A stretch of 64,000 nt of DNA from Dendrophyllia cribrosa (lineage: Eukaryota; Cnidaria; Anthozoa; Scleractinia; Dendrophylliidae). The position numbers were made by a program, and so were the translations under genes. This document shows positions 25,308 to 52,811 of the stretch, one piece after another. A model generated the notes under the pieces. That model had not been told where the DNA came from. It was given only the letters and a program-made list of their open reading frames with translations, and did not search any database. Each line of letters begins with the position of its first letter. The first letter of the stretch is position 1. The stretch is from contig JAJLRJ010000010.1 in assembly GCA_024195265.1 (NCBI GenBank), forward strand, positions 581,782 through 645,781, given 5' to 3'.

Positions 25308-26100
25308 GCCCATGAACCCTAAAGCTCAGAACCAAGGAGCTCGCCGGGGGTGTGAAATATTAGGTGCTCCTGTGAGGGGTGGCCTAAGGAGAGACCCTTC
25401 AATTATTCACCCACCCTACTACCCTAACACACGAGAGTCTTGTGTCGATGGAATTAGCCTTATTCACGATAGCCGCCATGTTGGTTTTTATATTATTATG
25501 CAAATTTACCACGTGATTTCTGAGGGGGCAAGCAACTCAAACTCGGAGTAGTAGTGCACCTCTTCGGAACCTCCAATTTTATTGTACCTGGATGAGGTAC
25601 ACCTCTATTGTTTTTAGTTCTAGGGTCCATTGTTTTGTTGCTTGTTCTATTGTTTTCTTAGCCAATCCGGTGAGGCGTTCCGAAAGTTGCACTTTCGGGA
25701 GATTTCAAACCAGTTAATTATGCTGATATTTTATCCACTCTCTCCAACGCCGTCACCTTAGGTAAGGCAACTGACCATAACACATCGCGGGCTCAAAGTT
25801 AACAAAAGATCGAGTGAAAATTTGCGCCACTGCTACTTCTAGCTTCCATTTGCTGTAGTGCCTGTCTTGCATTCAGTTTTGTTTTGAAACCAGCAACACG
25901 TATGTACGCATCGGGTGCCTTTTATTTGTACAGTACGATTAATGTCGAGAAGGACTGTAAACTTCTTTTCACCAGTTATGAGTTACGACTCATTAAAATA
26001 TATTTAAAACATTTTGACAAATTTTTAGGTCTAGCGCTAATTACCTGTACGTACTTATTTAAACGTTTTTTCTTTCATCGTTTTCAATAAAGTTCTAACT

Positions 26101-26530
26101 TCCAACGAAACTGTGGCCTTGCGTCGGTGGGGGAGATAAACACGAAAATTGAGTTTTATCAATTGATTTGATAAGAAAAATTGACCATCGTAAAGACATT
26201 CAAAAGCTGACGTTCAAACTCTGGTCCAGGAGGGAGTGGGCGACTCTTTTGTTTACCAATTATTTGTCGCGACCGACTCATCGCTACCAGTGTGACGTCA
26301 CAACAACGGGAAAGGACCACCCTTGGCTTGCTCAGTTTAGAGTGGGGACGCCATGACGTCACACTGGAAGTGATGACTCGACCAATGTTTTGCCTAGAGA
26401 CGCCCCCTCCCTCCTGCGCATCCTAGAGACGCCCCCTCCCTCTTGCGCTGGTCCTTCGTCAAAGCGAATCAAGGAATTGTTGGTCGTGTGTAGTTTGTAT
26501 ACGCCATTGGTGGAAACATGGTAACATAAA
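26101..26530. mobile_element. Penelope terminal-repeat relic, unit 2 copy
   Basis: CCAACGAAACTGTGGCC, the GGTGGGGGAGATAAACACGA block, ACATTCAAAAGCTGACGTTC and GTCCTTCGTCAAAGCGAATC match the ends of the full Penelope copies and the relic at 51247-51680. The hammerhead-like core is destroyed by a G/C-rich interruption. It was present before the unit 2/unit 3 duplication, since both units share it. Confidence 0.7.
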
Positions 26531-27339
26531 AAAACTCAAGATGACTTAAGTAAGCTCGGAAAGAAACGACAAGATAAAAATGACCATACGTCATGAGTGT
26601 GTGGACAAAGGTGGATTAAACGCCCGACCGGTTATCTATTGCCGACCGGGTATCTATTGCCGGCCGGGTATCTATTGTCGACCGGGTATTGGAGGGAGTG
26701 GGTTCGATACTTCGATTCCTATCGGGGACTCGGGTCGTTTGAAATCGAACGCAAATAGAAAACGTGGTATCACGTACGTGTACTGTGACCTGTCCAAAAC
26801 GTTACGTGAATCTGACCGAAATAGCTCTCCATTTTCCCACGGGGGAGGGGGGGGGGGGGGGGGGTTCCATTATGACACGTTCAGGAAAGAAAAAACTTGT
26901 TGAAGTGAAGTGTTAACTTCATTAAATAACTTACTTCCCATTTCTCGTTTTCACGTTTAAATAGTCTGCCCTTTTCTCTCTTTTTTTTGTAAGGATTCTG
27001 TTCTCAATTCTTATTAATCTGCCGAAAGAAAAGGGAGGGGTCCGGAACCCCTGCAGCCCACCCCTGGGTACCCCCTGCAGCCCACGCCTGGGTACCCCCT
27101 GGGTACCCCCTGCTAATAGTTGAGTGCCCCACTTCTCTCAGTTTTCTTTGTTTTAACAATGGATAATGCTCACTATCATTGATCTAAGAATTCACTGCAG
27201 AGTCCCTGCAAGTCTTCAAGGGTCCATTATTGTGTTGTTTGTTCCATCGTTTTCTCAGCAAATCAGAGAAGACCTTGTAAGAGCTGCGTACCGCCCTGTT
27301 CTCCACAGTCTCGATGGCCCCACGCAGTGGGGGTGGCTT

Positions 27340-27545
27340 GCCGTGAGCTTTTTGCTTTTGACGTGAGCCTTTTGCTTTTGCCGTGAGCCTTTTGCTTTTG
27401 CCGTGAGCCTTTTGCTTTTGCCGTGAGCTTTTTGCTTTTGCCGTGAGGATTTGGTTTTGCCGTGAGGTTTTGGTTTTGCCGTGAGCCTTTTGGTTTTTGC
27501 CGTGAGCTTTTTGGTTTTGCCGTGAGCTTTTTGGTTTTGCCGTGC
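27340..27545. repeat. 20-bp minisatellite
   Basis: About ten units of TTTTGCTTTTGCCGTGAGCC and variants. Two long minus-strand frames here (repeated KAHGK-type peptides) are artefacts. Absent at the matching place in unit 3. Confidence 0.9.
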
Positions 27546-27907
27546 ACTTGCGGGCCACCGTAGCCAACGGCCACATTCTGAAATCCCAACATGTATAATC
27601 CTTTATAATTTTACCCCGTTAATACGGCCGTTCGGACCAAATACGCATTAATTATTGACCAAACAAAACAAATACTGTGCAGTACTCGAGAAACAATACT
27701 GTATTTATTCACAACGCCTGCAACTTGTCATGTCATTAACTTTTGTCGTTAACGTAATCAAACAGCAATTTACTTTCCTGTCATGAAAAAGAAACGTAGT
27801 AGACCAGTCATGAAATTTGACCCTATCCCCTTAATACGGCCCGTTGATGGGGTTCCACTGTAATAAAGGTAAAATGGTCAGCGGTTGATCACTCTGTGAA
27901 AAATAAC

Positions 27908-27915
27908 GTCTTGTC
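27908..27915. repeat. 8-bp target-site duplication, left
   Basis: GTCTTGTC; the identical copy is at 41475-41482, and a single copy is at the empty site 52747-52754. Confidence 0.9.
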
Positions 27916-28000
27916 CAGGGGGGGGGGGGGGAGGTGAACTTCGTAATCTTTCCTGCAGGGATCGCGCGGCCTATGATCATGGCCATCGTGACGTCACGAG
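27916..28000. repeat. left terminal inverted repeat of the 13.56-kb element
   Basis: CAG then a G run, GGAGGTGAACT, and after a short gap CCTATGATCATGGCCATCGT and GACGTCACGA. The right end (41400-41474) is the inverse with about 10-20 bp of differences in the middle. Confidence 0.85.
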
Positions 28001-28016
28001 CAATCTCGCCCGGGAA

Positions 28017-30400
28017 ATTTAAGTGGCAGTCCCGCTAAAAGCGGTCCGCTCGATTTCGCGACCAAAAATAGTTTCCCTTTATTTTTTGCTGGTGAAAAGG
28101 CTTTGGTACACGCGTATGAAATACACAATTCTTTTTTTCAAATTCTTTATTTTCGCCCTGCTACAAGCAAAAAAACGAATTCAGGCCGTCTCGGCCTTTT
28201 CGACGGTGATCGGAAGACTAAAATTGATGTTTTTGAGAGGCGCTCTACGTAGAAACAAACGCAGTTGAAGAAATTTTGTTTAGGTCATGTTTCTAAGCTA
28301 AACTTGAGTAGTTCACAGGCAAAGTGTAAAAAATTTCAATAAAATGTTAAACAAGCTGAGGCAACTTAAAGACAACCCACTCTGAAGCCTATATTCAGAT
28401 ACTGAAAATGGCGCAAGAACGAGGGAAAATTTCTCAAACGTTGCGGCCTAAATTTGGTTTTAAAACCACGTCACAGTAAATTTCTTACCTTATTTTATCG
28501 AGTTATAAGCTCAAACGTGTGGGTATCTCCCGGGATCGCAAGCGAGAAGAGATTATAATCAGCTATTGACAGTGTGTTAACATAATTATCGGTCGTGCCA
28601 AAGGTCATTTGCATTACTCTTCGGATCTTCCAAACTGTTTCTATTGAGGCTTGAATTCAATTGTAGTTCTCCAAGATAAATGTCGACAGCTTCTTTAATA
28701 CCTCTGCGTCAGAATTAGATCGAGAACAGATGTAAAAGTTGCAATAAGATGAATAATCTTCATGGCGGCGACACGGTCCAGGCTCGACAAAACAAACAAC
28801 GAGGTATTTCAGCATGTTTCGGAAAAATCTTCATTAAAATCAGTACTTGATCCAAATTCTCTGCTCCAGTAACGAGTATTAAAGGTTTTCCATGTCCCTA
28901 CAATAAAAAGAAAGTCAAAGTTTATTCTGATCCACGATATTCACCCCTGGCGGAAACTTTAACTTGACCGTGGCATGCAAATATCGTATAATTTGAAAAA
29001 ATTAACGACAACCAGAAGTTTCACTGCGATACGTGAAATACTCACCGGTGAGAGGTTGAAATATATGAATAACTTGAGTTTAAAATTCGTTTTTAAGGGC
29101 TACTCGCCAAGCGACAGCAAAAAGGTTTTTTGCTTTAAAATGTGTAGATCCGTTACAAGGTCTTCGAGAACTTGGCTTGTGTCATAACTTGTCACACAAT
29201 GTTATCAAGGTCGCGTGACAAAGGTAGTTGGCCACTTGAATGCGCGATGTAACGGATCTACACATTTTCAAGCTAAGAAAACTTTCTGCGGTCGCTTGGC
29301 GAGAAGCCCTTATAAACGAATCTGAAACTCAAGTTATTCATATATTTCAACCTCTCATCGGTGAGTAGTTCATGTATCGCAGTGAAATTTCTGGTTGTCG
29401 TTGATTTTTTTTTAAAACAGTATTTGCATGCCATGGTCAAGTTTAGTTTCTACCACGGGTGAATTTCAACAGTATAAAATCGTGGATAAGAATAAACTGT
29501 GACTTCCTTTTTATTGTAGGGACGTGGAAAACCTTTAATACTCGTTACTGGAGCAGAGAATTTGGATCAAGCACTAATTTTGATGAAGATTTCTCCGTAA
29601 ACATGCTAAAAGCTTCGTTGTTTGCTTTGTCGATCGAGCCTTGTGTCGCCGCCATGAAGATTATTCAACTTATTGCAACTTTTACATCTGTTCTCGATCT
29701 AATTCTGAGTCAGAAGTATTGAAGAAGCTGTCGACATTTATCTTGGAGAACTACAATCGAATTCAAGCCTCAAAAGAAACATTTTGGAAGATCCGAAGAG
29801 TAATGCAAATGACCTTTGGCACGACCGATAATTATGTTAACACACTGTCAATGGCTGATTATAATCTCTTCTCGCTTGCGAACCCGGGAGATACCCACAT
29901 GTTTGAGCTTATAACTCGAGAAAATAAGGTAAGAACTCTACTGTGACGTGGTTTTAAAACCAAATTTAGGCCGCAACGTTTGAGAAATTTTCCCTCGTTC
30001 TTGCCCCATTTTCAGTGTCTGAATGTAGGCTTCAGAGTGGGTTGTCTTTAAGTTGCCTTAGCTTGCTTAACATTTTATTGAAATTTTTTACACTTTGCCT
30101 GTGAACTACTCAAGTTTAGCTTAGAAACATGACCTAAACAAAATTTCTTCAACTGCATTTGTTTCTACGTAGAGCGCCTCTCAAAAACCATCAATTTTAG
30201 TCTTCCGATCAACGTCGAAAAGGCCGAGGGCGCCTGAATTAGTTTTTTGCTTGTAGCAGGGCGAAAATAAAGAATTTGAAAAAAAGAATTGTGTATTTCA
30301 TACATGTGTACCAAAGCCATTTCACCGGCAAAAAATAAAGGGAAACTATTTTTGGTCGCGAAATCGAACGGACCGCTTTTAGCGGGACTGCCACTTAAAT
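28017..30400. repeat. 2.4-kb imperfect palindrome inside the 13.56-kb element
   Basis: The left arm 28017-29156 and right arm 29249-30400 are inverted copies of about 1.15 kb, differing by scattered point changes and small indels. The 92-bp centre is not paired. The outer ends read ATTTAAGTGGCAGTCCCGCT and its inverse. Each arm contains an exon-like block (right arm 29520-29928 with TTGTAG acceptor and GGTAAGA donor). In the right arm the frame ending FELITRENK is open from 29587; in the left arm the same frame has TGA/TAA stops. Neither arm gives a full uninterrupted protein. Confidence 0.85.
29587..29928 (+). CDS. exon-like open frame in the right palindrome arm
   Basis: The frame contains CRRHEDYSTYCNFYIC, SEVLKKLSTFILENYN and KIRRVMQMTFGTTDNYVN, and ends FELITRENK at a GTAAGA donor in phase 0. 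The next exon of the unknown gene (30383) also starts in phase 0, so the two may belong to one transcript. The upstream acceptor at 29519 enters out of frame, so the 5' part is damaged or differently spliced. The inverted copy in the left arm is broken by stops. No known family. Confidence 0.4.
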
Positions 30401-33400
30401 GGTTGGTACGACCGAAACAATTGTTTCCACCTTTTCCCGACGAAAGTAACGAGAATTCGACGCATAGCGATGAAACTGCTAAAGGTACGTGATAACCTTA
30501 TTTTTTAATGTCTGAAAAATGCGATATTTTTTCAAGAAAACCTTTTTCACCCCATCAAAACAAGAGATTTTCAAGATCGACAATTTAGAAACGCGGTGAA
30601 ATAGTGAAGGCCTCCACATCTTTCGTGACCGATAACTCGGGAACCAAATGGTTTACAAATAGGAGGGGAAAATATGACATTAATATGGTTTAGATCTTTC
30701 GAACAGTAGTAAAAGTTAATCACTTAATTTATTAATAAAAATGATCAGTGGGTTTAAAGGCATTTTTTGCTGCACGATTGCGTATAATGTTCCCGATTGC
30801 GCGACACCCGCGTAAATATGGGAAAGCCACAACATCTCATAATGCGAGCGAAAATGCTCTGTTGAAGAGTACCTAGGACTATAAATCATTTCACTGGATT
30901 CGGAGCTTATGATGGGTTGTAGGAGTTTGTTTTTTTGCTAAGTTTTCTAAAACAATCGGCAAAGAATGTATTGTTTTTGCCTGCGAGGCAAGTGGGCTGA
31001 CGCGTGCTTCCCGGCAAAAGAAATTAGTGATGTTGTCATAGGGTATATGTTTACAAATATTTCATTCTGTTCTACCAAAAACATAACATTTTAGGGCTTT
31101 GCAAAAAAAACCCACAAGCCCAGCAAAGCCAAGGAGGATCCGTTTCTAGGACTGGTACGTAGCTCTCTTGCTTTATCTTATTTAACAAGTAGTAAAATCG
31201 GGCGAAATACGAAGTTCATCTTTGCTTAAGTTTTAAAGAAAAGCTATTTCGACCATTTCATGTGTTTATTCCAAGTTAAGATAATTTCTAAGACAAGGAC
31301 AAAAGTCTCTAGACATCTGCTCTCAGACTAGAGACCAAGAAGAAGTGGAATAAAGAAAAGATTAGGCACAGTAGGGCGCTATATATATATACCGTGAAAC
31401 TTCGCATATGCCGAAATTAAGCGTTTCCTCTGGCGTCCGCACATTATATTAGCTAAAAAAAACGTGATTTACACGTGTTGTTTTGTTGTTAAATAATTCA
31501 CAAGGTTAAAAGTGGGGAATTGATTTTTATTACGCTTCTTTTCTCTTAACATGACATTCAGCAATATTCTTAGCACAATTTTCTTTGCTTTTCTTGTGTT
31601 AAGGGTACAAATGAGAATAAAATTAACAAATGCGAGTTCAAGAGTAATAACTAATTGTCTAGTCAACAAGATGCTTTACATCAAACAATTAACACCGAGT
31701 TTGAATGTGCAAACGGATTCTATCCGTGCTAAAATATTTGTGTAGCCACCTCCGCTATGTAAATTAGTTATTACTCTTGAACTCGCATTTGTTAATTTTA
31801 TTCTCATTTGTACCCTTGATAATGGCGTCATGAGGTCGCTGAAACGTCGGGATATTATATCGCTTGTTTTTACTTGTCTATGTATTTCTAAATCATTGTT
31901 AATATTTTCTTGTGTTATAGGCGAAATTGCAAACAGATCTTTGGAGGAAGCGAAAATGTTTAAAACAGAAGATGGATTCGATTGTCAAGGGAATAAAACG
32001 AATACACACTCCAAACATAAATGATCTTAAGGTTAGGAGCCTACCGTGTAGAAGCCTTTTAATTATTCGTATGGATCTGTTCGAGCTCATCTTGCCAACA
32101 TTAAGGTTTATTTGTTTGTATACATGTATGTCTTTTAAATTGACTCATGATAGGACAATTCACCGAGTCGGAAAGTAAAAACCTGGCAGAGATGTTTATC
32201 TGGGATATGAAAGTCAAATAAATACAATTTTTAATTTGTTTCTTCTGTAATCATCAAATGTTCATCTCCTCGTACACTTGGTCTAACTACAACATTCCAT
32301 CATTTTAGGCAAAACAAACACTAGAGAGAAGATGGAGACAACGAAACAAGCTTTCCAAAAAATGGAAAAAAATGGAGATTCAAGTCCAGCGAGTGGTCAA
32401 TGTCTCCCACAAGCTGTTAAAGCAGGAACCACTTTTTTACAGAACAAGAACAAAGGTCAGTGAAGGATCAGACCGTACATTCTATATGTACTCAGGTCTC
32501 ATTTTTTTGTATGATATTTATTATGTGCATGTCTGTATCTCGTAAGAGTCATTAAATACTTGTTTTTCCTTAGCAGATATCAGAGATAAATGATCCACTT
32601 GAAGATATTAAAAGTTTGTTTGAGCCTACAGCTGAATCACAACAAGAACCGAAAAACAAGACATCATCTTTTAAAGGTGTTTTACTGATTGTTGAACTGG
32701 TTAAATATTGACATGCATTGGTATTTTACAATAAAACCTAATGACACATTTTTAGTGTTTTTGGTAAAGCGTTTTTTAATGGTGCCACCATGACAATAGC
32801 TTGATCCTGTTACCATATCAACCAAACTTTTTGAATAACCATGAGATGTCTTATCAGAATGTGATAAACAGAAAGCTATCAATACAATTAAGAATTAAAC
32901 AATCAATAACACTCAATCAACTGGTTAGATTTATTGATACAAATCCACAATCACTATCCTTGTTTTTTGATTGCTATCATTTTTTATTAATTTTATTGAT
33001 TTTAATCAGTAATCATTAAATGATGGTCTATAGTTGTTGGTAAGAATAAACTTCAAAATTCCAGTTGAACAATCATAGCTTCAAACAAACTATTGCCATT
33101 ATTATATCAATGGAAATCATATTAGAAGTTGTTTTTCACTTGTAAATAATAAATTCGCTATGTTAAGGGTAAAACATAAAATTCAGTAATGGAAATTGCT
33201 CTCTTGATTATCAATCTTTATTGATTTGTAAAATTAATTGATAAACTGATAGTTGATTGACATGATTGATTTATATCGACTATAGATTTCTACCAATTGG
33301 GCATGGCCATAAGGTACATGTAATACATGAGAGACATTTGACTAGTCCCTCCACATTCAACTTCTAAAAAAACTCGTTTTTAACTGACAATAGGTCACTG

Positions 33401-34324
33401 CACTGAAGATCCTATCAAAGTCGAGGTGGAGCCTGTCTGCATACAGGATGCCTGTAAAATTAATGAAAAGAGAAAGAATATCACAGGGGGAACAGGAGAA
33501 GGTACACTATATTTAAGTTAAGTATACTGTAGTGGGAGACCAGAGATTTTACCACCAGAAATATAATACTCATGACAATAAGCAAAATGGAAAATTTTTA
33601 GGAATCTGAAAATTAGAGTTGAATATTTCATGGAAATCCTATAAATTTTCAAAAAATCATATAATATGGTATTAAAAATTAATCCATGATTAAGTTAACC
33701 CAGCATTATTATGAAATTTGAATGCTTGTAGACTTTTACAATGTGGATTCCTCCAAATCCTTTTTGATGACATTCAGTGATCTCAACTTGTAACCCAACA
33801 TATTAACTAATAGTTAAAATGGCTTTCAAACAGCTGGACCCACAAGGCTAAAACTTGGCCATTTGCTAATATTATTTGTGGTATTTTGAAAGTTTTAACC
33901 CATAGTTAATTGATTTCATGAGTGTGTAGGTAAAGCGCTTATTCACTCATTCAAGTAGTTATTATAATTTTGTGTTAGTTACAAGTAATAAGAGTACATA
34001 AAACTGATTTTTCTCCTTTTTTCTAAAGGGATTTTTGTACAACAATGTGCCATTTCTGGGTGCAAGAATAGTTGTGGAACATCAACAAAGAGTGTTAGGA
34101 CCCTAAAAGGCCTGTATGAAATTGATGACCTCTTTGCTAGTCTACAAGATAGTGAAATTAGCAACTTGAAAGTGTGCAATGTACACTACAACAGAGACCA
34201 TCGACGCCATCAGCAGTGGTCAGGAGACAGCCTTTGCCTTGCAGTCCAAACATGTTTTGCATGCAGTAAAACAGTGAAAACAACAAAATCAATCCCTGCA
34301 AAAAGCATTCTATTTCTTTATTAA
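30383..34324 (+). CDS. multi-exon gene of unknown function carried by the 13.56-kb element
   Basis: Exons 30383-30484, 31095-31154, 31921-32031, 32309-32455, 32577-32676, 33394-33501 and 34029-34324 all have AG/GT borders. Their phases agree (0,0,0,0,1,1), giving about 307 residues. The N-terminal third is very basic and helical (KLQTDLWRKRKCLKQKMDS, ERRWRQRNKLSKKWKKMEIQ). The middle is acidic (INDPLEDIKSLFEPTAESQQ). The C-terminus has CAISGC, 37 residues, then VCNVHY, which fits C-x4-C-x37-C-x2-H (THAP-like C2CH spacing), then CFAC. The THAP Trp and AVPTAF are not seen. It could be a DNA-binding subunit or cargo. The first exon and the start codon (ATG at 30470 or further upstream) are uncertain. 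TAA is at 34322-34324. Confidence 0.55.
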
Positions 34325-34332
34325 ATAATGGT

Positions 34333-34800
34333 ATGTCTTTCAGTAGTGCAATATCATGTTGCTTTTTCTCTGAACATTGCACGCAAAGTTCAAAGATCAT
34401 TGAGAATGAGAATCTATACACAACTGGTGATACTGAATCTCAGAATTCATGTTATTTATGCATGAGCTGCAAACAACCTTTTGTGCAATTAACCAAAACA
34501 CGAAAAGCATATGAAGAGCAAGAAGAAAGGATAAGGAAACTGTTAATGGATAAATCTACGGGAATTGAAAGTTGCATAAAGCCAGCAATTGCACATAACA
34601 GTCTGTTAAAGGCACATCAAATAAAGGTACAGGATGCCCTTGAAAGGGTCTTGGAAGCTTCCAAAGAAGAAGAAAACTTGATTGTAGGAATTGGTAACAA
34701 TTCTACTCTTACCCTGTCTAAAAATATCTTCATCAATGGTGTGGCTACCAGCAACAAAAAATTAATCATAAACTTCTTTATATCTACAATGTTCTTATGA
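34333..34800 (+). CDS. 155-codon ORF, Cys cluster and helical, element-borne
   Basis: Directly after the stop of the unknown gene, in another frame, an open frame contains CYLCMSCKQPFVQLTKTRKA, then EEQEERIRKLLMDKSTGIES and DALERVLEASKEEENLIVGI. The CxxCxxC cluster resembles the CFAC cluster just upstream. It may be the 3' part of the same protein after a frameshift or an unseen short intron, or a separate gene. No family recognised. Confidence 0.4.
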   Translation: MSFSSAISCCFFSEHCTQSSKIIENENLYTTGDTESQNSCYLCMSCKQPFVQLTKTRKAYEEQEERIRKLLMDKSTGIESCIKPAIAHNSLLKAHQIKVQDALERVLEASKEEENLIVGIGNNSTLTLSKNIFINGVATSNKKLIINFFISTMFL

Positions 34801-37505
34801 CTTTGTCTACCTATGTCCCTTTTTCTCTACAGTCTATCCTTATTAACTCATACATGTACATGTAGCTATCTATCTTTATCTACAAATGATCTTATGACTT
34901 TCCCACCCATATCCTTTTTATCTGCATGTAGGATACATATTCTTCTTAAATACCTAGATAAGTTTACACCCAAAATAGTTTGCACTAATACTGGGAGTGC
35001 AGAGATCTAAAGCTTGTACAAATGATAAGCACTTGTTTGAAGTGCTCTTATTGCAGGCCGAGTGGCAGCAATAAGTTTGCTTCAGCTGGAGAAGCAACTG
35101 CCCCACATATTCTTATCTTACTCGTAGCTATTTTATGACTCAGTATACAACACTTCACATTCTAATATTTTCTATTATCTACTTAACTACTTACAGCTAC
35201 TGTACAAGTACAGTGTGCCTATCCATATTTCCACAAAAATGTACCTGTGACTTCATCTAACTACATCCCAATTTATTGATTCTGGTATACCTACATTATG
35301 GTGCCACATTTACCTAACATGTACTCATGCATGTGGCTTAGTGCAGTTATCCTATTAAAATCTGCAAAATATTCTTATGATTATCAAGATATCTTTTTAT
35401 AATTTATTCTACATCTACAGTTAAGTCTCATTGAAAGGGAAAGACTTGTAATTGATAGCACTACAGCTGTACATCAACCACAAGCCATTTATATATGCAC
35501 AGTCCCAACATAAAGAATTTTGCAAATTCTATTTTGGAATTAAAATACCAAGGACAATGACAATTACACACATATGTACATCATTTACAATTAGTTTTTG
35601 CCTCAATAACGTGTAAAGCACAATGTTCACATCAAATTCAACATCAGCGTATACATACTAACATGCAAAACATTTGAAATATAAAACACAATTGACATTT
35701 CATTTACTAAGAAAAAGATGCCTGCATGTACACACTGTACATGCATCATTTCATAAGTCCCTCCCTTGGTCTGTCTAAATTGTATTACAGATCATTAATG
35801 ATACAAAGAAAAAGCAAAATAGCAGATTTAACAACAAGGGCTGCAAAATGCATATACCAGGCACGATTTAGGGGTAACACTTATTCTTTTGATAAAACAA
35901 TAGAATATAAGTCCGGAACACAAAAGAATGACAATACCATAGTGTCATAGAATACAACGCCATACAATATATTAGAATACATAATTTTACCTAATACAAT
36001 GGAAATGTACAATGTACAATGGAGCTGACACCCTAAATCGGGCATCACATGAGCAAGTAAAATACATGCCTGGATCATGCGAAAAGGGGACTTATCAACT
36101 TAGTGGTGTTTTGGAACATAGATAAGACAGTATATTCTGTGTACATGTACATGTCCCTACTCTCTACACTATCTGGGCTGCACTGTTGTTCACTTTACTT
36201 CTTTATTGCAACGTACATATACATGATTCTCCAAAACTAATGATCAAATATCTTTCTAGTGTTTGATGTCCCACAAAATGGTGAAATCGTTCCAAGTTGA
36301 TCAGGTCTTAATAGCACCTTAGTGATAAGGATGCAATAAAAAATAACATTCAGTGGTGTAAGACTTTCTATCACGATAAACATAATATTATTTACTTGAC
36401 TGTTTGATTGGCATTGTCATACGAAAATTATGAAAATTACATTCATTTTTTTTTTGCTTTTTCCATTCACCAATGAAATAACCTATATATAATAAAAATG
36501 GAAGCAAGGTATAAAACTCAGTGAATAGATAAAGTGACAGGGCTTATTTCTAGTACATGATTATTAAAAAAAACTGTGGTGCTCTATTAATGAGGGAGTG
36601 AACACAAAAATTCAGCTTTATCGACTGAATTTAAATTAAATTAAACTGGCCACCACAAAAGATTCATTGCTTCGGTGGTTTGTCTGAGCAAAATATTAAC
36701 CCTACAGCAAAAACAAGTGACATCAGGCTATCACAATTAAATTAATTGGTTCACTGAATTAAAATATATTTTTTTATGGTACTGCCAAAAAGATTGAATG
36801 AAATACATTTGTCAACATATAACACAACAAGACAGCTGATATTGAAGTGTGAATTATGAATAACATGCTTGTTAAAAATGCTATCTTCAATCTTGGACTA
36901 AGGCAAGAGTACAGAACTGAGGTCATTGCACTTGAAGCTACTGCAAGTCTACTACTGCATGGCAGTCACATGTGTAGTGTACTTGTTTGTGAATAAACAC
37001 ACATGTAACAATTAACTATTACTATATACAATGGATAAGATATCCTTTAAACAAACTATAACATACCTTTATATTAAAATAACTAAACTACATACGGATT
37101 AGTGATTAACTGTGAGAATGAACTCCTCTCAACAAGAATCAATTCCAAACAGTAAAATCTTACAAAAAACATTTCAGAGGCCAAATATGTAAACACAGCT
37201 GAGGGGTCTTAGCATTTGATATTTTGAATCATTGTAATGCAACTTATAAGTCATCAAAAGACACAACAACTCGATAAAATGAAAACAAACACATGACTTA
37301 TGATTAATAATGCTTACATGATTGTAAGCTTTTTTAATTATAGAAGCTTATAAACTACCTCCTCAAAACTGCCTGGACCGGAGTCGATTAACCTAAAGCT
37401 GTAGCCCAACATTGTGAAGTATCGCCGTTATTATAACAAAAAGCTTTTAATTTCGTAGAAGCCTCGTCAGTTTTTTGTATAGCTAGACACAGGTTGTAAT
37501 GATAA
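34801..37505. other. AT-rich non-coding part of the 13.56-kb element
   Basis: Only short chance frames are present. TACATGTA-type words are frequent. A diverged Penelope-end relic lies at about 36569-36680 (AAACTGTGGTGCTC, TTTATCGACTGAAT, GGCCACCACAAAAGATTCA). Confidence 0.55.
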
Positions 37506-37781
37506 ATGGACAGCATAAGTGTACTTGTACAAGTCCGTAAAAATATGATAAGTTTACTGTCTCAATCAAATGGACTGATCATTTTTCCTACTGATTCTTC
37601 TACATTAACTTCAATTGAAGTGTTTTTCTATGGAAATAACCTATTCCAAGACCAAGTTTCACGTTTCTATATTGAACCGATCTCGAAAAAAAGCAATTTT
37701 ATTGTGCAAGCAACCAAATTTTCACCACACAATTCTCCACTCGAGGAAAATGACCTCAACTCTTTAAATGAATGGGGTTAG
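37506..37781 (+). other. ORF cut by the Penelope insertion
   Basis: The frame (MDSISVLVQVRKNMISLLSQ, then YGNNLFQDQVSRFYIEPISK) has no recognised motif. It runs into the 14-bp duplication CTCAACTCTTTAAA and stops inside the inserted DNA. In the pre-insertion arrangement the frame would continue past 41210 for only a few codons to TGA. Coding status is unknown. Confidence 0.3.
37755..37768. repeat. 14-bp target-site duplication of the Penelope insertion, left
   Basis: CTCAACTCTTTAAA, repeated exactly at 41197-41210. Confidence 0.85.
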
Positions 37782-37889
37782 TTTCTGGAGAAACTGTGGT
37801 GCTGTGTCGGTGGGGGGATGAAACACGAGAATTTAGTTTTATCGACTGAGTCGATAAGGTAAATTGACCACCGTAAAAAGATTCAAATA

Positions 37890-37922
37890 GCTGACGTTTC
37901 GAGCGCTAGCCCTTCGTCGGAG
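37890..37922 (-). ncRNA. hammerhead-like ribozyme core in the Penelope end (left arm)
   Basis: Read on the minus strand: CUCCGACGAA, stem-loop GGGC-UAGC-GCUC, GAAAC, GUC. Hammerheads in Penelope elements use CUGANGA ... GAAA ... UH; here the U of CUGA is C (CCGACGA), which would probably weaken or abolish cleavage. Confidence 0.5.
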
Positions 37923-38018
37923 CGAATCAAGGAATTGTGGGTAGTGTGTGGTTTTATATAGTAAGCGGTGGAGCTACGCTATTGGTGGAAATTTGGTGAC
38001 GTGAAAAAGAAATGTAAA

Positions 38019-39482
38019 TTAGTTGAATGAAAAGCGTTCGTTGATTCCGTGGGGTTTGAGAGTGCCGATTTGAAAGATGATTTTTTGTTCTAGGTTTTTA
38101 CGGCTTTCTGTGTTACCCTGGTGTAGGGAAAGGCCGCAGATTGTCATGTGTTGTTTAGAATGGTTAGTAAGATTAAAATGGCGCGCGACTGGTTTGGATG
38201 CGTCTTTGTCATTTTTTTCAACGTCTCGGAGATGTTCACGAAAACGGTCGCCCAGTCTCCTCCCTGTTTCGCCAATGTATATCTTTTTGCAAAAAGTACA
38301 TGTTATGCAGTAGATAACATTTACGGAGGTGCATGTAAAACGATCAGTGATTTTAATAGATCGTTTGGGTCCTGTTATTTTGTCCGCGTTGTGAATGAAA
38401 GGACAAGTGTTACATCGTGTGCGTGTGCATTTGAAAGTTCCCGGTTTATCGTCAGATTTCAGTGCGCTCGTAACTAGAAAGTTGCCTATGTTTTTGTCAC
38501 GTTTGAATGAAATTAGTGGGGGTTGTGAAAAAATTCTGCCAGTTTCGGGGTCGTTTTGGAGTAATTTGAAATTTTTTAAAATGATGCTTTTGACTGTGTT
38601 GTTGTGTGGGTGGAAAGTGAGGGTGAATGGAATTCTCTCGTTCTCTTCCTTCTGTGGCGTTTGTAGTGCTGATTGTCTGTCGATCTGTTGTGCACGTTGT
38701 TGGCCCGTATTAACAACAGAGTCAGGGTACCCACGTTTCTTGAAAAACTGGCACATTTCTTCTGATTTGTTGGAAAAATCAGAGTCATCACTACATAGCC
38801 GTCGAAGTCTGAGAAATTGAGAATACGGAATGGCGTTTTTAACGTGCGATGGATGTGAGGATGAATGTAACAGATAACTGTGGGAATCTGTAGGTTTGTA
38901 GTGCACACTTGTGGATAAACTGTTACCGTTGATTGAAATATTAATGTCAAGAAAAGCGACTGAGGTTTCGGAAATTTCCCAGGTATATTTTAGAGTTGGA
39001 TGAAAAGTATTGACAGAAGTTATGAATTGATTAAGTTCCTCTTTACTGGAAGAGGTAGCGCCAATGCAATCATCGATGTAGCGGCCGTAGAGTTCGGGTT
39101 TGGTTCCGTGGTACTGATTAAAAAATTTGTCTTCGATGTGGCCTACAAAAAGGTTAGCGTAGCTTGGTCCCATTTTGGTGCCCATGGCGACTCCATTAAC
39201 TTGTTTGTAGTAGTTTTGGGAAAATGAAAAACAGTTAAGTGTCAAAACTAATTCGGCTAAGCGGAGCAGTGTTTCTGAGCTTGGGTTTTGAATGGAGCGC
39301 TGGTCGAAAAAATATTTAAGTGCTTGAAGTCCTTCGTCATTGGGGATGACGGTATATAAAGAGGTAATGTCCATAGTGAAAATTAATTTGTTTTCGCTGG
39401 GAAAACTGAAATTCCGGAAAATTTCGAGTGCGTGATTGGTGTCCTTAATGTACGAGGGTAGTGATTTGACAATGGGGGCCAT
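38019..39482 (-). CDS. Penelope-like reverse transcriptase with GIY-YIG endonuclease (left copy)
   Basis: 487 residues. RT motif A is at about 35-50 (FTMDITSLYTVIPNDEG), motif B at about 97-115 (GVAMGTKMGPSYANLFVG), and the catalytic YIDD at about 134-137 (YGRYIDDCIGAT). A linker with a CxxxxCNTCPF knuckle follows. The C-terminal GIY-YIG nuclease (IYCITCTFCKKIYIGETGRR, then DRFREHL) is at about 395-430. Known Penelope proteins are longer, so the N-terminal part is missing and the ORF starts at an internal Met. It acts by target-primed reverse transcription. The frame is intact and identical to the right copy. Confidence 0.9.
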   Translation of the reverse strand: MAPIVKSLPSYIKDTNHALEIFRNFSFPSENKLIFTMDITSLYTVIPNDEGLQALKYFFDQRSIQNPSSETLLRLAELVLTLNCFSFSQNYYKQVNGVAMGTKMGPSYANLFVGHIEDKFFNQYHGTKPELYGRYIDDCIGATSSSKEELNQFITSVNTFHPTLKYTWEISETSVAFLDINISINGNSLSTSVHYKPTDSHSYLLHSSSHPSHVKNAIPYSQFLRLRRLCSDDSDFSNKSEEMCQFFKKRGYPDSVVNTGQQRAQQIDRQSALQTPQKEENERIPFTLTFHPHNNTVKSIILKNFKLLQNDPETGRIFSQPPLISFKRDKNIGNFLVTSALKSDDKPGTFKCTRTRCNTCPFIHNADKITGPKRSIKITDRFTCTSVNVIYCITCTFCKKIYIGETGRRLGDRFREHLRDVEKNDKDASKPVARHFNLTNHSKQHMTICGLSLHQGNTESRKNLEQKIIFQIGTLKPHGINERFSFN

Positions 39483-39550
39483 GATTTTGTCTAAATAGCT
39501 ATTTAGGAAATTTCCGAAACCTCAGTCAAAATAGCTATTTAGACAAAATC

Positions 39551-41014
39551 ATGGCCCCCATTGTCAAATCACTACCCTCGTACATTAAGGACACCAATCA
39601 CGCACTCGAAATTTTCCGGAATTTCAGTTTTCCCAGCGAAAACAAATTAATTTTCACTATGGACATTACCTCTTTATATACCGTCATCCCCAATGACGAA
39701 GGACTTCAAGCACTTAAATATTTTTTCGACCAGCGCTCCATTCAAAACCCAAGCTCAGAAACACTGCTCCGCTTAGCCGAATTAGTTTTGACACTTAACT
39801 GTTTTTCATTTTCCCAAAACTACTACAAACAAGTTAATGGAGTCGCCATGGGCACCAAAATGGGACCAAGCTACGCTAACCTTTTTGTAGGCCACATCGA
39901 AGACAAATTTTTTAATCAGTACCACGGAACCAAACCCGAACTCTACGGCCGCTACATCGATGATTGCATTGGCGCTACCTCTTCCAGTAAAGAGGAACTT
40001 AATCAATTCATAACTTCTGTCAATACTTTTCATCCAACTCTAAAATATACCTGGGAAATTTCCGAAACCTCAGTCGCTTTTCTTGACATTAATATTTCAA
40101 TCAACGGTAACAGTTTATCCACAAGTGTGCACTACAAACCTACAGATTCCCACAGTTATCTGTTACATTCATCCTCACATCCATCGCACGTTAAAAACGC
40201 CATTCCGTATTCTCAATTTCTCAGACTTCGACGGCTATGTAGTGATGACTCTGATTTTTCCAACAAATCAGAAGAAATGTGCCAGTTTTTCAAGAAACGT
40301 GGGTACCCTGACTCTGTTGTTAATACGGGCCAACAACGTGCACAACAGATCGACAGACAATCAGCACTACAAACGCCACAGAAGGAAGAGAACGAGAGAA
40401 TTCCATTCACCCTCACTTTCCACCCACACAACAACACAGTCAAAAGCATCATTTTAAAAAATTTCAAATTACTCCAAAACGACCCCGAAACTGGCAGAAT
40501 TTTTTCACAACCCCCACTAATTTCATTCAAACGTGACAAAAACATAGGCAACTTTCTAGTTACGAGCGCACTGAAATCTGACGATAAACCGGGAACTTTC
40601 AAATGCACACGCACACGATGTAACACTTGTCCTTTCATTCACAACGCGGACAAAATAACAGGACCCAAACGATCTATTAAAATCACTGATCGTTTTACAT
40701 GCACCTCCGTAAATGTTATCTACTGCATAACATGTACTTTTTGCAAAAAGATATACATTGGCGAAACAGGGAGGAGACTGGGCGACCGTTTTCGTGAACA
40801 TCTCCGAGACGTTGAAAAAAATGACAAAGACGCATCCAAACCAGTCGCGCGCCATTTTAATCTTACTAACCATTCTAAACAACACATGACAATCTGCGGC
40901 CTTTCCCTACACCAGGGTAACACAGAAAGCCGTAAAAACCTAGAACAAAAAATCATCTTTCAAATCGGCACTCTCAAACCCCACGGAATCAACGAACGCT
41001 TTTCATTCAACTAA
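39551..41014 (+). CDS. Penelope-like reverse transcriptase with GIY-YIG endonuclease (right copy)
   Basis: The mirror image of 38019-39482 with the same 487-residue product, including RT motifs A, B and YIDD and the GIY-YIG nuclease with its preceding Cys motif. Both copies start at the same ATG about 35 bp from the palindrome centre, so both were truncated or copied at the same point. The downstream flank carries the hammerhead-like core at 41111-41143. Confidence 0.9.
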   Translation: MAPIVKSLPSYIKDTNHALEIFRNFSFPSENKLIFTMDITSLYTVIPNDEGLQALKYFFDQRSIQNPSSETLLRLAELVLTLNCFSFSQNYYKQVNGVAMGTKMGPSYANLFVGHIEDKFFNQYHGTKPELYGRYIDDCIGATSSSKEELNQFITSVNTFHPTLKYTWEISETSVAFLDINISINGNSLSTSVHYKPTDSHSYLLHSSSHPSHVKNAIPYSQFLRLRRLCSDDSDFSNKSEEMCQFFKKRGYPDSVVNTGQQRAQQIDRQSALQTPQKEENERIPFTLTFHPHNNTVKSIILKNFKLLQNDPETGRIFSQPPLISFKRDKNIGNFLVTSALKSDDKPGTFKCTRTRCNTCPFIHNADKITGPKRSIKITDRFTCTSVNVIYCITCTFCKKIYIGETGRRLGDRFREHLRDVEKNDKDASKPVARHFNLTNHSKQHMTICGLSLHQGNTESRKNLEQKIIFQIGTLKPHGINERFSFN

Positions 41015-41110
41015 TTTACATTTCTTTTTCACGTCACCAAATTTCCACCAATAGCGTAGCTCCACCGCTTACTATATAAAACCACACACTACCCACAATT
41101 CCTTGATTCG

Positions 41111-41143
41111 CTCCGACGAAGGGCTAGCGCTCGAAACGTCAGC
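41111..41143 (+). ncRNA. hammerhead-like ribozyme core in the Penelope end (right arm)
   Basis: The mirror copy of 37890-37922, on the + strand: CTCCGACGAA, GGGCTAGCGCTC (4-bp stem with UAGC loop), GAAAC, GTC. It has the same U-to-C change in the conserved CUGANGA box. Confidence 0.5.
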
Positions 41144-41216
41144 TATTTGAATCTTTTTACGGTGGTCAATTTACCTTATCGACTCAGTCGATAAAACTCA
41201 ACTCTTTAAAACTTCT

Positions 41217-41447
41217 CTACGGATGATTTTCAACTACAATGTAAATTGACTTACCTCTACAGAAAGAAACATCATAGTTACACCTTTCTGTCCAAACACA
41301 AGACACTTTGAGGCTTGAATAAGTAGAAAAACCAGCTTGAAAAAGTTGTATTTGCAAATGACGACGGCGCCATTTTCGAAAACTCGACAAACACGCACGC
41401 TTCTCTCTTCGTGACGTCACGATGGCCTTGATCATAGGGACAAACAA
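41217..41447 (-). CDS. basic first-exon-like ORF next to the right TIR
   Basis: The minus-strand ATG lies within the TIR. The frame is Arg/Lys-rich (TSRREKRACLSSFRKWRRRH) and has a strong donor (GAG|GTAAGT) at about 41253, ending CNYDVSFCR at the border. This could be a transcript from the element's right end reading inward, now interrupted by the Penelope insertion. No downstream exon was identified and no family is recognised. Confidence 0.35.
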   Translation of the reverse strand: MFVPMIKAIVTSRREKRACLSSFRKWRRRHLQIQLFQAGFSTYSSLKVSCVWTERCNYDVSFCRGKSIYIVVENHP

Positions 41448-41474
41448 ATTGACGAGTTCACCTCCCCCCCCCTG
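41400..41474. repeat. right terminal inverted repeat of the 13.56-kb element
   Basis: It reads inward as CAGG(n)GGAGGTGAACTCGTC, then CCCTATGATCAAGGCCATCG and TGACGTCACGA. The target duplication GTCTTGTC follows at 41475-41482. Confidence 0.85.
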
Positions 41475-41482
41475 GTCTTGTC
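41475..41482. repeat. 8-bp target-site duplication, right
   Basis: GTCTTGTC, 25 bp upstream of the gene 2 ATG; identical to 27908-27915. Confidence 0.9.
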
Positions 41483-41507
41483 AGACCCACACCCAATTGG
41501 CAGCGTA

Positions 41508-41562
41508 ATGGCAGCCGCTTTGCACTTTGTTCTTGTGTTGTTCTTTCTTTCAGCCATTCAAG
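41508..41562 (+). CDS. gene 2 signal-peptide exon
   Basis: ATG-GCAGCC opens a hydrophobic leader with an Ala/Ile-Gln end and donor GTAGGA, phase 1. Exon and following intron are about 90% alike to 52812-52866 and its intron in unit 3, which identifies the tandem duplication. Confidence 0.85.
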
Positions 41563-44500
41563 GTAGGATTTATATCATTTGTTTTATCCCAACTGATACT
41601 CGTGGAAACATTCCACTTTGTAGAATGCCATGTGGTGTTCAGTTCTAAGAAGTTTAATATTTCGTGCGTAAGTCCCATTACAGTAAGCTTATGTGGCCCC
41701 TGGCCACGGCCGTTTTCCGGCACAAAAACGAAGTTTCAATGAAAACGAATCTTTCCGAGATTGTTGATCTTTTTCTTTTTCTTTTTTAATCTTTGTTTTC
41801 TGCCAGAAGATTACATAAAAAACGGCCGTGGCCGGACCACGGGCACTGCCGGACAGGGGCCACATACTGTACATGTATTTTAAAACACTTTTTCCGCTTT
41901 CACCGAGACTCATGAGATCTAAAACTCTTGAGACTGAAGGACTTATTAATTTCGTTAAGATACCGTTACTAAACAGGTTATTCTGAAGTTGTAATATGTT
42001 GTGCTAAAAATCGTCGTTGCGATTCGTCCCGTGTAACATCACCTTTACGCTTTTTAAACATAAAATTATATTCCTGAACTTTTTCTTTTTTAAACCTCGA
42101 GATATAACACCGCTAGGAATGTATTTAATCTCAAAGAGATCTCAATGTCTGCTTATAAAGAAATATGCCCTGAGAAATGTGGCTCTAAACCCATAAAAAA
42201 AAGTTCAAAGCTTTGCCATTTACACTTCCTGTTTAGTGACTTCCGGCTACTCTCACTTCCGGTAAAACAGCGTTACTGAGGTGTCACGACAGCGTCTCCT
42301 ACAACCCTACTCACCTTAGAATGTTCACGTCAGGTATATATTAGTTCCATAAGAATGACTGGCTTCATTGTGGTACAGCCTTCATTTTTAAAACATTCAA
42401 TGGTAACGTGGTTTGTAGGTACGATGACTGAATGAAAGGAGTAACTCTTCTCCATGTCGGACGTCTTCTTATCGTGTTTAAAATATTAAAATATAAATTG
42501 CTTCTTTTCTTATGGTACATTGAAATATAAGACAAATGTTTCTTATGCATGCGCATGACAAACATTTTCCGTCATTTTGTCTTATTGGTGTATATGTCAG
42601 TCCTGTATTTCTCCCATCGAGGTGAACGTTGCTTCTATACACAGCATACAACTTGAGGCCGAATTTGTCGCGATTCTGAAAAACTAAGAGCTATTTTTAA
42701 TCAGAGTTCTTCCGAGGCAAAAATACCAAACATCGATCTCTCGCACTGGTAAGCATATTGTCAATTTATTCCCCTTTTTACTGCCGATTCTTAACAATGC
42801 CTGTATCGGAGCAGTCCTCGCTGCCTGTGCCAGTGCCAGTGTCTGACAGTTCCTTGTTTGTACAAGTTGGACTTAAGAAGTTGGAGGGAAACCTTTTAAA
42901 TTACACAGTAAGGGCCAAGATAACTTATAACTCAATAAATACCTACTCCTGCTTCCACGCAATGAAGGAGAACCATTTAATAATGAATTGATCAAATCAC
43001 AATGATCAATCTTTACTTAAGATCTCGTTAAAATATAGACGATATAATATTCTTTAGAAATAATTGAAAGTGACGATGATGATGATGATGACGATGGTGG
43101 TGATGTCAATGTTGTGGTTCAATTTTATCCTTGGTTCAAATTTTATTTTCCTTTGTTTTAAACTCATTATCATACATTACCATAGCCAAAAACAAAGGAA
43201 AATAAAATTTGAACCAAGGTTAATTGAACTGCAATATCAATATTTTAGACAAACACCAAATTATTTTAGCAAGAGGGATTTATTTTTGGTTTGTTTGTTA
43301 CTAAAAACTGTCACAGAAAATGGCCTTATAAATTAGTATAAGAAATGAAATAAATGATCAAGCTCTAGGCTTTCTTCTCAAAATCTAACAGTTAACCCTT
43401 CTTTAAAATTTTAGGATTGATAAAAAGTAACATTTAAGGCATTATGCACAAGCCTGTGTGTAGCTGCCCCCCCCCCCCCAAAAAAAAAAAATAAAAAAAT
43501 CAGAGAAGGGGAGATTAGAGGCCAAGGGATGCTTATAAAGAAAAAAATTGTTACTTTGTGCTCATTTTGAAAATACATAAAATGTCTCTGACAGATTTTG
43601 TTAATAACCAAGCTGCTTTGTAGCTCATTGTGGCTCATAAGATTGATATTGTTTTTCGGAATGACTTTGCAAGTTCTTTGTTTAGTGTCGGCTCTCTGAA
43701 TTTCTACCAGTGAAAGCTTACCGACATGACTTTATCCTTTATAAGTATAAAAAACGTAACTCATGGAGATGTTTTTCAGCATGCATGCATGCATGCATAA
43801 CAAAAGTTGGCATCAGAGAGGGGGTTGCTAAATAAATTTCTTCCTCCAAAAGGGGAGTCTTATTTGAGAGTGGGGCTTAATAAAAGATTTACAGAATCAA
43901 GCCTGCAGCTGCATGCAAATTGTCTCACAGAAAAACTGTTACTTTCATTCACATTTATTAGCATTTAATAATAGAAGTACTTGAATGGGAATTTGTTATC
44001 ACTCAGGTAGCGTTGGTTGGAAACATTACTGCTTATGATGTGGTTGACCCTGTGAATGTTGTATTACTTCAGGGACAAACACCTGTGAGGTCTGGGAAGT
44101 GTGGTAAGAACTGTATTTCAGTTAAACTGCACCACAACCTTAATTTTTTTTTTTTTACAACTTTATTTTAAACAATACATTATTTACATAACTACAATTA
44201 CAATATGATACTACACGAACTATGCAGATGTACAAATTATTACATTTGCAAATTTACTAATGCTAATTATAGAAGTTATAGAAGAGCTGTCCACTTTTGG
44301 CGAAAAGCAGGCAAGCATTTCTTTGCAATTGCAGTTTCTTTAATTATTTCAATTTTTTCTTGGATTCGCAGCAGGAAGTTAACTTTAATGCCTTAGGATG
44401 TCTGTGATTGAGGCTAATACAGGGTCATAATTTTGTCATTCTTTTAGCATTTTGTGTTAATAATTTCCTCTCTAAATAAAGTTAACTCACATTCAGCCAC

Positions 44501-51689: not shown

Positions 51690-52811
51690 TATAAAAAAAG
51701 AGAAAGAAACGAAAAGATGAAAGGGACCATACGTCATGATCGTGTGGACAAAGATGGATTAAACGCCCGACCGGTTATGTCGGTTATCGGAAGGAATCGA
51801 TTCTATTCCCATCGGGGACTCGGATTGTTTGAAATCGAACGCAAATAGAAAACGTGTTATCACATACGTGTTCTATCATCATCCTGTACAAAACGTTTCA
51901 TGAATCTAACCAAAACAATGCTGTCCATTTTTGCAAGAGAGAGAGAGAGAGAGGGCGGGATTCCATTTCTTTCGAAACAATGTGCATATCACGTTAGTTC
52001 CTTCGTATCTATTTGCTTACTAGATCCACCAGGATCCGACGCTTTTGCATTGTCCGTTCACCGTTGTCCCTTGCAGATATTTCCTAAGTGTTCATTTGAA
52101 GTGGAGTGTTAATTTCGTAAAATAGCACTTACTTCCCATTTCTCGTTTTCAAGCTGAAATAGTCTGCTCTTTTCCCGTTTTTTTTTGTGTGTACGGATTC
52201 TGTTCTCAATTCTCATTAATCTGCCGAGAGAAAAGCCGGGGGGAGCAGAGGGTACGGAACCCCTGCAACCCACCCCTGAGTACCCCCTTACTAATAGTTG
52301 AGCTCACTATTTCTCTCAGTTTTCTTTGTTTTAACAATGGATAATGGTCACTACCATTGATCTAAGAATTCACTGCAGGATTCACTGTAAGTCTTGATAC
52401 GTGCACACACTCTCTTAGCCTTCTCCGCAGTCTCGATGTCTGCAGTAATTTCACTGATTTCCTTCAAAACCACTCTGCATTGAGGTTCTTCACTCCGGGG
52501 TGGAGGGGGGGGGGGGGGGGGGGTGGGGTTGGGCTCCCTATGTAAGACGGAGGTGTTCGTCGTACCTTTTAGAGGTTTTTACTGTTGTCTCCATCGCTAT
52601 TAAAAGTGTGAGTTCATGTGTTGTTTTTTAGAATTGGTACCTCTGTCCCCCCACTTCCCCCTTCCCCCTCGCTCGGGTTTCACCGATTTTATCGTATTAT
52701 GAAAGGCTCTCGATTGTCAGCGGTTGATCACTCTGTGAAAAATAACGTCTTGTCAGACCGACACCAAATTACACATCGCGCGAAGTCAGCAGAATTTTGG
52801 GAGGCAGCGTT
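51690..52811. promoter_or_regulatory. unit 3 upstream region with the empty site
   Basis: The segment matches 26560-27915 with indels (ATTAAACGCCCGACCGGTTA, ATCGGGGACTCGG, TTTAACAATGGATAATG). It lacks the 27340 minisatellite and the 13.56-kb element. The single GTCTTGTC at 52747-52754 is the empty site. A G tract is at 52506-52523. By position it is the presumed promoter and leader of gene 3; no specific motif is claimed. Confidence 0.6.

Follow-up and report, generated by a model that had tools for sequence, protein, structure and literature searches.

Introduction

P elements are textbook eukaryotic DNA transposons, which host repair copies back into the gap left at the donor site, and a THAP domain is a usual component of their transposases. 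The Drosophila P element, 2.9 kb long, makes 8-bp target duplications and carries terminal as well as subterminal inverted repeats. Many P-element copies are non-autonomous and internally deleted (PMC7776569), and the P-type RNase H domain is interrupted by a GTP-binding domain (PMC10983969). In this study we analysed a stretch of 64,000 nucleotides (hereafter the window) from the stony coral Dendrophyllia cribrosa (assembly GCA_024195265.1, contig JAJLRJ010000010.1, positions 581,782 to 645,781, forward strand), in which an insert occupies the leader of a gene that we call gene 2. This insert very probably belongs to a recently active family of P-superfamily DNA transposons, of which it is a non-autonomous copy with an internal deletion.

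The family shares 8-bp duplications and both kinds of inverted repeat with the Drosophila P element, and differs from it in size (12.8-12.9 kb for the complete element), in its ends, which read CAGG(n)AGGTGAACT, in that no THAP domain was found, and in the additional domains encoded in the same frame, namely CCHC knuckles, an exonuclease of the YqaJ type and another C-terminal domain. Zebrafish Pdre2/THAP9 is likewise built with a short terminal and a separate subterminal repeat, 8-bp duplications and internally deleted relatives, whereas its terminal sequence is CATACCTGTCAAC and its description does not mention YqaJ (PMC10983969). A YqaJ exonuclease beside a transposase is found in ISL2EU elements of the PHIS superfamily, but there it forms a second open reading frame (ORF), the duplications are 5'-AT-3', the transposase is of the PIF/Harbinger DDE type, and autonomous copies average 4.8 kb (PMC4482050); these traits are not those of the coral family, which has 8-bp duplications and P-type domains instead. 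Galileo, finally, is another P-superfamily element of unusual anatomy, with long foldback-like terminal repeats (PMC3688188), whereas the long left palindrome in the window is a foreign TTAA insertion.

In the literature searched, which did not extend to Repbase, YqaJ was found paired neither with a P element nor with cnidaria, and judged on this basis the exonuclease fusion and the size of the element look new. The first-pass annotation of this locus had proposed a new or little-described family of large, cargo-bearing elements. What stands of this proposal is a lineage of large P-superfamily elements to whose transposase an exonuclease is fused, while the cargo and the size given for the window copy have to be given up.

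Insertion site and element ends

The string GTCTTGTC occurs three times on the plus strand of the window, at 27908, 41475 and 52747. The first two occurrences enclose an insert of 13,559 bp (27916-41474), and the third lies uninterrupted in the neighbouring gene copy, with about 30 bases directly 5' of the target site being identical at 27908 and 52747. The left end reads CAGGGGGGGGGGGGGGAGGTGAACT from 27916 and is found inverted at 41455-41474 with a shorter G-run; the length of this run differs among copies, seven others of which have the same type of left end. A 30-bp subterminal inverted repeat with 29 identical positions, missing from the first-pass annotation, is set back by 54 bp from the left end and by 36 bp from the right end.

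27908..27915, plus strand: left 8-bp target site duplication, GTCTTGTC
27916..27940, plus strand: left terminal inverted repeat, composed of CA, 14 G and AGGTGAACT
27970..27999, plus strand: left subterminal inverted repeat, including TGACGTCA
41409..41438, minus strand: right subterminal inverted repeat
41455..41474, minus strand: right terminal inverted repeat
41475..41482, plus strand: right 8-bp target site duplication, GTCTTGTC
52747..52754, plus strand: uninserted paralogous target site preceding gene 3

The inverted ends with their exact 8-bp duplication, and the unbroken site with its matching 5' flank in the neighbouring gene copy, had been described correctly in the first-pass annotation. 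The same is true for the closeness of the right end to gene 2, whose start codon at 41508 follows 25 bases after the second copy of the duplication.

Copies in the genome

The genome searched was a 627-Mb assembly of 22 contigs, in which the window corresponds to C2:581782-645781. An 87-bp query from the left end obtained 16 matches and a 264-bp query from the right end 23, all candidates (16 and 23, respectively) having been scored. Eight near-identical copies, including that of the window, were located with both ends. In the seven others, substitutions relative to the window copy amount to 0.52-0.76%; the shared sequence compared was about 5.8 kb long, or 4.1 kb in the case of copy L075, where the fetched stretch ends early. 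Perfect 8-bp duplications, every one different, flank six of the eight, i.e. the window copy and L071 (GAGCCAGG), L072 (GGTTGCTC), L073 (ATTGCGGG), L076 (CTTTAATA) and L077 (CTTTTCTG). Because near-identical copies are flanked by mutually different duplications, we conclude that the family has been mobile recently and that the insert is not an assembly join. An absence of further copies with these ends, which the first-pass annotation had named as a refutation of its reading, can be dismissed: seven near-identical ones exist, five of them with perfect duplications. Among the eight more diverged matches to the left end, both ends and a duplication, GTCCGAGT, were identified for one, L079 (2.1 kb).

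Two of the near-identical copies are long and reside on the contig of the window.

C2:9753468-9766360, minus strand: L074, 12.9 kb
C2:9703717-9719303, plus strand: L075, 15.6 kb

Their flanks do not match, with TGCGAGAC on the left and CATAGAAC on the right of L074, and TCAAAAAT on the left and TGCGAGAC on the right of L075. That TGCGAGAC is common to both of these inverted neighbours suggests an exchange, inversion or hybrid-end event between them. Scans of IMG/VR and GTDB found no relative; 46 IMG/VR stretches that matched a loose pattern of the ends were judged to be chance matches.

Internal deletions

Comparison with L074 and L075 establishes that the insert in the window is an internal-deletion derivative of long family members.

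34775..34776: internal deletion junction, 5.48 kb missing relative to L074 and L075, with an identical junction in L073

The 5.48 kb present in the long copies and absent at this point contains the RNase H, CCHC and YqaJ regions. Given that their junctions are the same, the window copy and L073 represent one deletion class at two sites with different duplications. A second class with another junction is formed by L071, L072 and L077, which share the exact junction string, and L076, assigned by BLAST break points; both classes are thus found at more than one insertion site. All four copies of the second class also share an insert of 1.1-1.5 kb at one point (about 3380-4860 in L071), which holds a disrupted frame for DUF3504 (E 3e-12 for L071) and was amplified along with this class. 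DUF3504 is a mark of Crypton-type recombinases.

The protein of the long copies and their sister families

The open frames of L075 comprise 441 and 1,563 amino acids, and those of L074 are broken at other places. Used as a genome query, L075 gave 44 matches (37 scored of 137 candidates), among which two further families span nearly the whole query, one on contig C3 at 65% identity and one on C17 at 40-44%. The C3 sister element (family L092) is 12,824 bp long with a perfect duplication, ATCGGACG, and related ends, and its open frame comprises at least 1,993 amino acids in the stretch read (2,034 by the count of the genome search). The third family, L093 (C17:15852800-15860300), has a frame of 1,896 amino acids. 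As read from these frames, the last exon of the full-length element is predicted to encode about 2,000 amino acids with a Cys/His cluster, a P-type RNase H domain, two CCHC knuckles, YqaJ and a conserved C-terminal domain.

The RNase H assignment is based on PF21787 (TNP-like RNase H, N domain), which matches L074 at E 1.9e-10 and L075 at E 1.5e-8; across the three families the values range from 1.9e-10 to 3.9e-7, and the match is above the Pfam cut-off in all four copies (L074, L075, L092, L093). The sole match of the L075 transposase part in the PDB (E up to 10) was the P element transposase, 6p5a, at E 0.0011, and the sister family L092 matches the same structure at E 3e-6. The HMMER alignment to the P transposase spans SDPPHMIKKLRN and NQDDVENYF, motifs that may hold residues of the catalytic D, D, E set, with the first D falling outside the alignment. 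Zinc knuckles (PF00098) were recognized in L075 at E 2e-12 and YqaJ (PF09588) at E 2e-14 (L075) and 2e-16, and in the PDB the YqaJ part matches the lambda-type exonuclease 3syy at E 1e-9 (L075) and 3e-10. The sister family L092 adds PF21788, the GTP-binding insertion domain of P-type transposases, at E 1.3e-6 and above cut-off. Comparison of L075 with the C3 element over five regions gave proportions of 0.18-0.26 for nonsynonymous (pN) and 0.65-0.82 for synonymous differences (pS); because pN is far below pS, the tested regions, YqaJ and the C-terminal part included, appear to be kept by selection.

The C-terminal domain contains the strings NSCHxDTFLE and YDLxAxIYHHNxHFWC..GWYLYNDMW, each of them fully covered by two of the three sequences in the alignment. 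To our eye these strings resemble ubiquitin-specific proteases, for which the profile scan gave no match. Against the PDB this part gave weak matches only, the best being hepatocyte growth factor (E 0.0047), and these were taken as chance. In L093, the most distant of the families, ubiquitin (PF00240) is matched weakly (E 0.062, 13.5 bits with a cut-off of 25.4), and RLIGG follows directly before the zinc cluster.

The same query also matched shorter frames. Seven loci on C1, C4, C6 and C16, with frames of 553-565 amino acids, are 27-30% identical to the RNase H part and are without YqaJ; two of them have one stop within the match, and the seven are apparently ordinary P-like transposases. Six further loci on C12, C4, C6 and C21, with frames of 384 amino acids, match in YqaJ only.

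Superfamily assignment

These profiles, together with the 8-bp duplications, found also at L079 and the C3 sister, and the combination of CA..TG terminal and subterminal inverted repeats, give good support to placing the family in the P superfamily. When the window copy was scanned against Pfam in six frames, only the reverse transcriptase and GIY-YIG domains of a nested Penelope-like element were returned; the lack of a transposase match there is due to the missing catalytic part.

CAGGG-type ends also occur in hAT elements, and a hAT-superfamily element would account for the CAG..CTG ends and the 8-bp duplications seen here. However, no hAT profile was found in six-frame scans of the window and L071, in three sense frames and one antisense frame of the long part of L074, or in the scans of L092 and L093, and for the transposase of the long copies the matches were to P-type profiles and to the structure of the P transposase, which leaves a hAT origin very improbable. 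While 8-bp duplications are usual for hAT, they are made by Zisupton as well (PMC12730594), and a Zisupton/KDZ-type element, being large and having cysteine-rich clusters, would agree in both size and duplication. We nevertheless give this assignment very little chance, as the scans made revealed no KDZ or CxC profile and P-type RNase H and GTP-binding domains were found. Of the P, hAT and Zisupton families named in the first-pass annotation, it is the P type that fits.

Several points weigh against our reading of the insert as a P-superfamily derivative. The GTP-binding profile PF21788 was matched in one of the three families only, L092, and is not listed for L074, L075 or L093. The RNase H C-terminal profile had no match in any copy scanned, and neither did the THAP domain, although a C-x4-C-x37-C-x2-H cluster is present, the spacing of which is compatible with THAP ligands. 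Similarity in sequence to the solved P transposase is no more than modest. Since L074 and L075 are both frame-broken and their flanking duplications do not match, no intact autonomous member of the window's exact family was found. In the comparison of L075 with the C3 element, the rate ratio dN/dS is indicative only since dS is saturated. Lastly, the proposed function of the exonuclease and the derivation of the deletions from gap repair are inferred.

The gene of the element

The window copy retains the 5' part of a multi-exon gene on the plus strand. The exons were placed by hand and their phases are consistent.

30470..30484, plus strand: predicted first coding exon, MKLLK, with donor GTACGT
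31095..31154, plus strand: predicted exon GFAKK..FLGL, without a counterpart found in the sister element
31921..32031, plus strand: predicted exon AKLQ..NDLK, sister counterpart 38% identical
32309..32455, plus strand: predicted exon AKQTLERR..RTRTK, sister counterpart 50% identical
32577..32676, plus strand: predicted exon ISEIN..SSFK, sister counterpart 52% identical
33394..33501, plus strand: predicted exon GHCTED..GTGE, sister counterpart for its second half only
34029..34775, plus strand: 5' part of the large terminal exon with the cysteine/histidine-cluster region, frame-broken and ending at the deletion

A similar start is found in the sister element (MKRPK followed by GTATGT). Homology to the large exon ends at about 34779 in the window, and in L071 this exon is open for 373 amino acids. 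Two exons initially placed at 29.2-29.9 kb (E1 and E2) were dropped, as they lie inside the TTAA insertion described below.

According to the first-pass annotation, this gene was cargo, and a captured host gene would indeed explain a multi-exon gene without Pfam match inside the window copy. However, the sister element holds, in unchanged order, counterparts of the exons at 31921, 32309 and 32577 and of the second half of that at 33394, and in L074 the large exon continues into the RNase H frame. Given these two observations, the gene is the element's own, namely the family's transposase gene truncated to its 5' part, and capture of a host gene becomes a most unlikely explanation.

Searches of a public protein collection with the large exon yielded six exon-sized ORFs of its family in one search and 25 in another, none with a precomputed Pfam domain, and no long relatives of the truncated exon among 649 candidates; for such genomes, the database seems to hold mainly exon-sized ORFs. 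Of the 26 proteins found to be related to the truncated exon, 16 were scanned against Pfam, and all their matches fell below the curated cut-offs. A predicted structure of one protein, P0015, was poor (mean predicted local distance difference test score of 50.7) and was not used.

Foreign insertions in the window copy

Three nested insertions have enlarged the copy in the window.

28023..30394: nested insertion 1, a palindromic element of 2,372 bp, with TTAA flanks at 28019-28022 and 30395-30398
31602..31904: nested insertion 2, 303 bp, between 13-bp repeats TTTTCTTGTGTTA at 31589-31601 and 31905-31917
37755..37768 (left) and 41197-41210 (right), plus strand: 14-bp duplication CTCAACTCTTTAAA of the Penelope-like insertion
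37769..41196: nested insertion 3, a 5'-truncated Penelope-like retroelement forming a head-to-head palindrome
38019-39521, minus strand, and 39485-41014, plus strand: reverse transcriptase and GIY-YIG frames of the Penelope-like insertion

Both the first insertion, whose arms are about 90% identical, and the second are missing from all seven other near-identical copies, and the Penelope-like insertion is missing from all six that cover the site (the L075 stretch does not reach it). Together with their duplications, the three insertions amount to 6.13 kb of the 13.56 kb, and the element proper in the window therefore measures 7.43 kb, in agreement with the 7,407 bp of L073. Consequently, the figure of 13.56 kb overstates the element proper, which measures 7.4 kb here and 12.9 kb in L074. 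The unusual size emphasized in the first-pass annotation does apply to complete elements, which are large (12.8-12.9 kb); the window copy, in contrast, is large through its nested insertions. The reading frames on the right (38.0-41.0 kb) are part of the Penelope-like retroelement.

In the latter, the reverse transcriptase is recognized by RVT_1 at E 4e-8 (33.6 bits, exceeding the cut-off of 29.6) and GIY-YIG at E 2.4e-4 (21.8 bits, slightly below the cut-off of 22.6). Both outer ends carry a string that looks hammerhead-like, with no match to the Rfam hammerhead ribozyme in 26000-42000 or 41060-41215. The arms of the palindrome differ at two positions outside the centre, and such near-perfect arms could be mimicked by fold-back reads, raising the question of whether an artefactual palindrome or a mis-join in the assembly made the whole insertion. 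We consider this exceedingly unlikely: the 8-bp duplications, the empty site and the copies elsewhere fit transposition, and the Penelope-like insertion has a 14-bp duplication of its own and is absent from the copies covering its site. Moreover, Penelope copies that are joined head to head, with palindromes at their junctions and one of the inverted repeats bearing a tail, have been described in a rotifer, with self-priming as the proposed origin (PMC3846280).

With respect to the other two insertions, a portion of the TTAA element is highly repeated in the genome (377 candidates, 40 of them scored), and this element holds exon-like frames. The 303-bp insertion has a short inverted repeat (31601-31817 region) and, in its right part, GCTGAAACGTCGG, which bears some resemblance to Penelope/retrozyme ends.

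Gene 2 and other features of the window

41508..41562, plus strand: first exon of gene 2 as earlier proposed, signal-peptide-like, MAAALHFVLVLFFLSAIQ

The string TATATAAAA at 41073, in the right arm of the Penelope-like insertion, is oriented towards gene 2 and lies about 435 bp before its ATG; it is a candidate that could serve as a replacement promoter for this gene. Elsewhere in the window, we noted a broken reverse transcriptase at 62291-63408 (RVT_1 E 1.2e-12), which by eye resembles that of long terminal repeat retrotransposons, and a 1.3-kb inverted pair (54501-55780 and 57165-58457, 95% identical) on either side of an ORF at 56189-56605 that by eye looks zinc-finger-like and has no Pfam match. 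An attractin-type beta-propeller gene was also among the profile matches.

Discussion

Internal deletions of the Drosophila P element come from interrupted donor-gap repair, and those of the coral family might have arisen in a comparable manner, through incomplete repair of donor gaps. A transposase encoded elsewhere would have excised a shortened copy and pasted it into the leader of gene 2 at breaks staggered by 8 bp; such mobilization of deleted copies in trans is probable by analogy with the biology of P elements, where non-autonomous copies are moved in this way (PMC7776569). The TTAA palindrome, the 0.3-kb insert and the Penelope-like element would have been acquired by the window copy. 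The fused exonuclease might act on the DNA ends at the donor site, providing resection for gap repair.

We tentatively propose, as a possibility with the odds rather against it, that a giant P lineage exists in which a P-type transposase, CCHC knuckles, a lambda-type YqaJ exonuclease and a conserved C-terminal domain with cysteine and histidine boxes, possibly an enzyme similar to ubiquitin-specific proteases, are fused in a polyprotein of at least about 2,000 amino acids. If true, such an element would excise itself, resect the gap so that repair restores the element, and free the parts of its polyprotein by a protease of its own. A P-type lineage with a constrained exonuclease in the same protein would allow a direct test of whether transposons can steer repair at their donor sites. 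In addition, a single animal genome here displays long copies along with two classes of deletion derivatives, one of which carries a broken Crypton-type gene, and the recent insertion in a gene leader, next to an empty paralogous copy, constitutes a natural test of its effect on gene expression.

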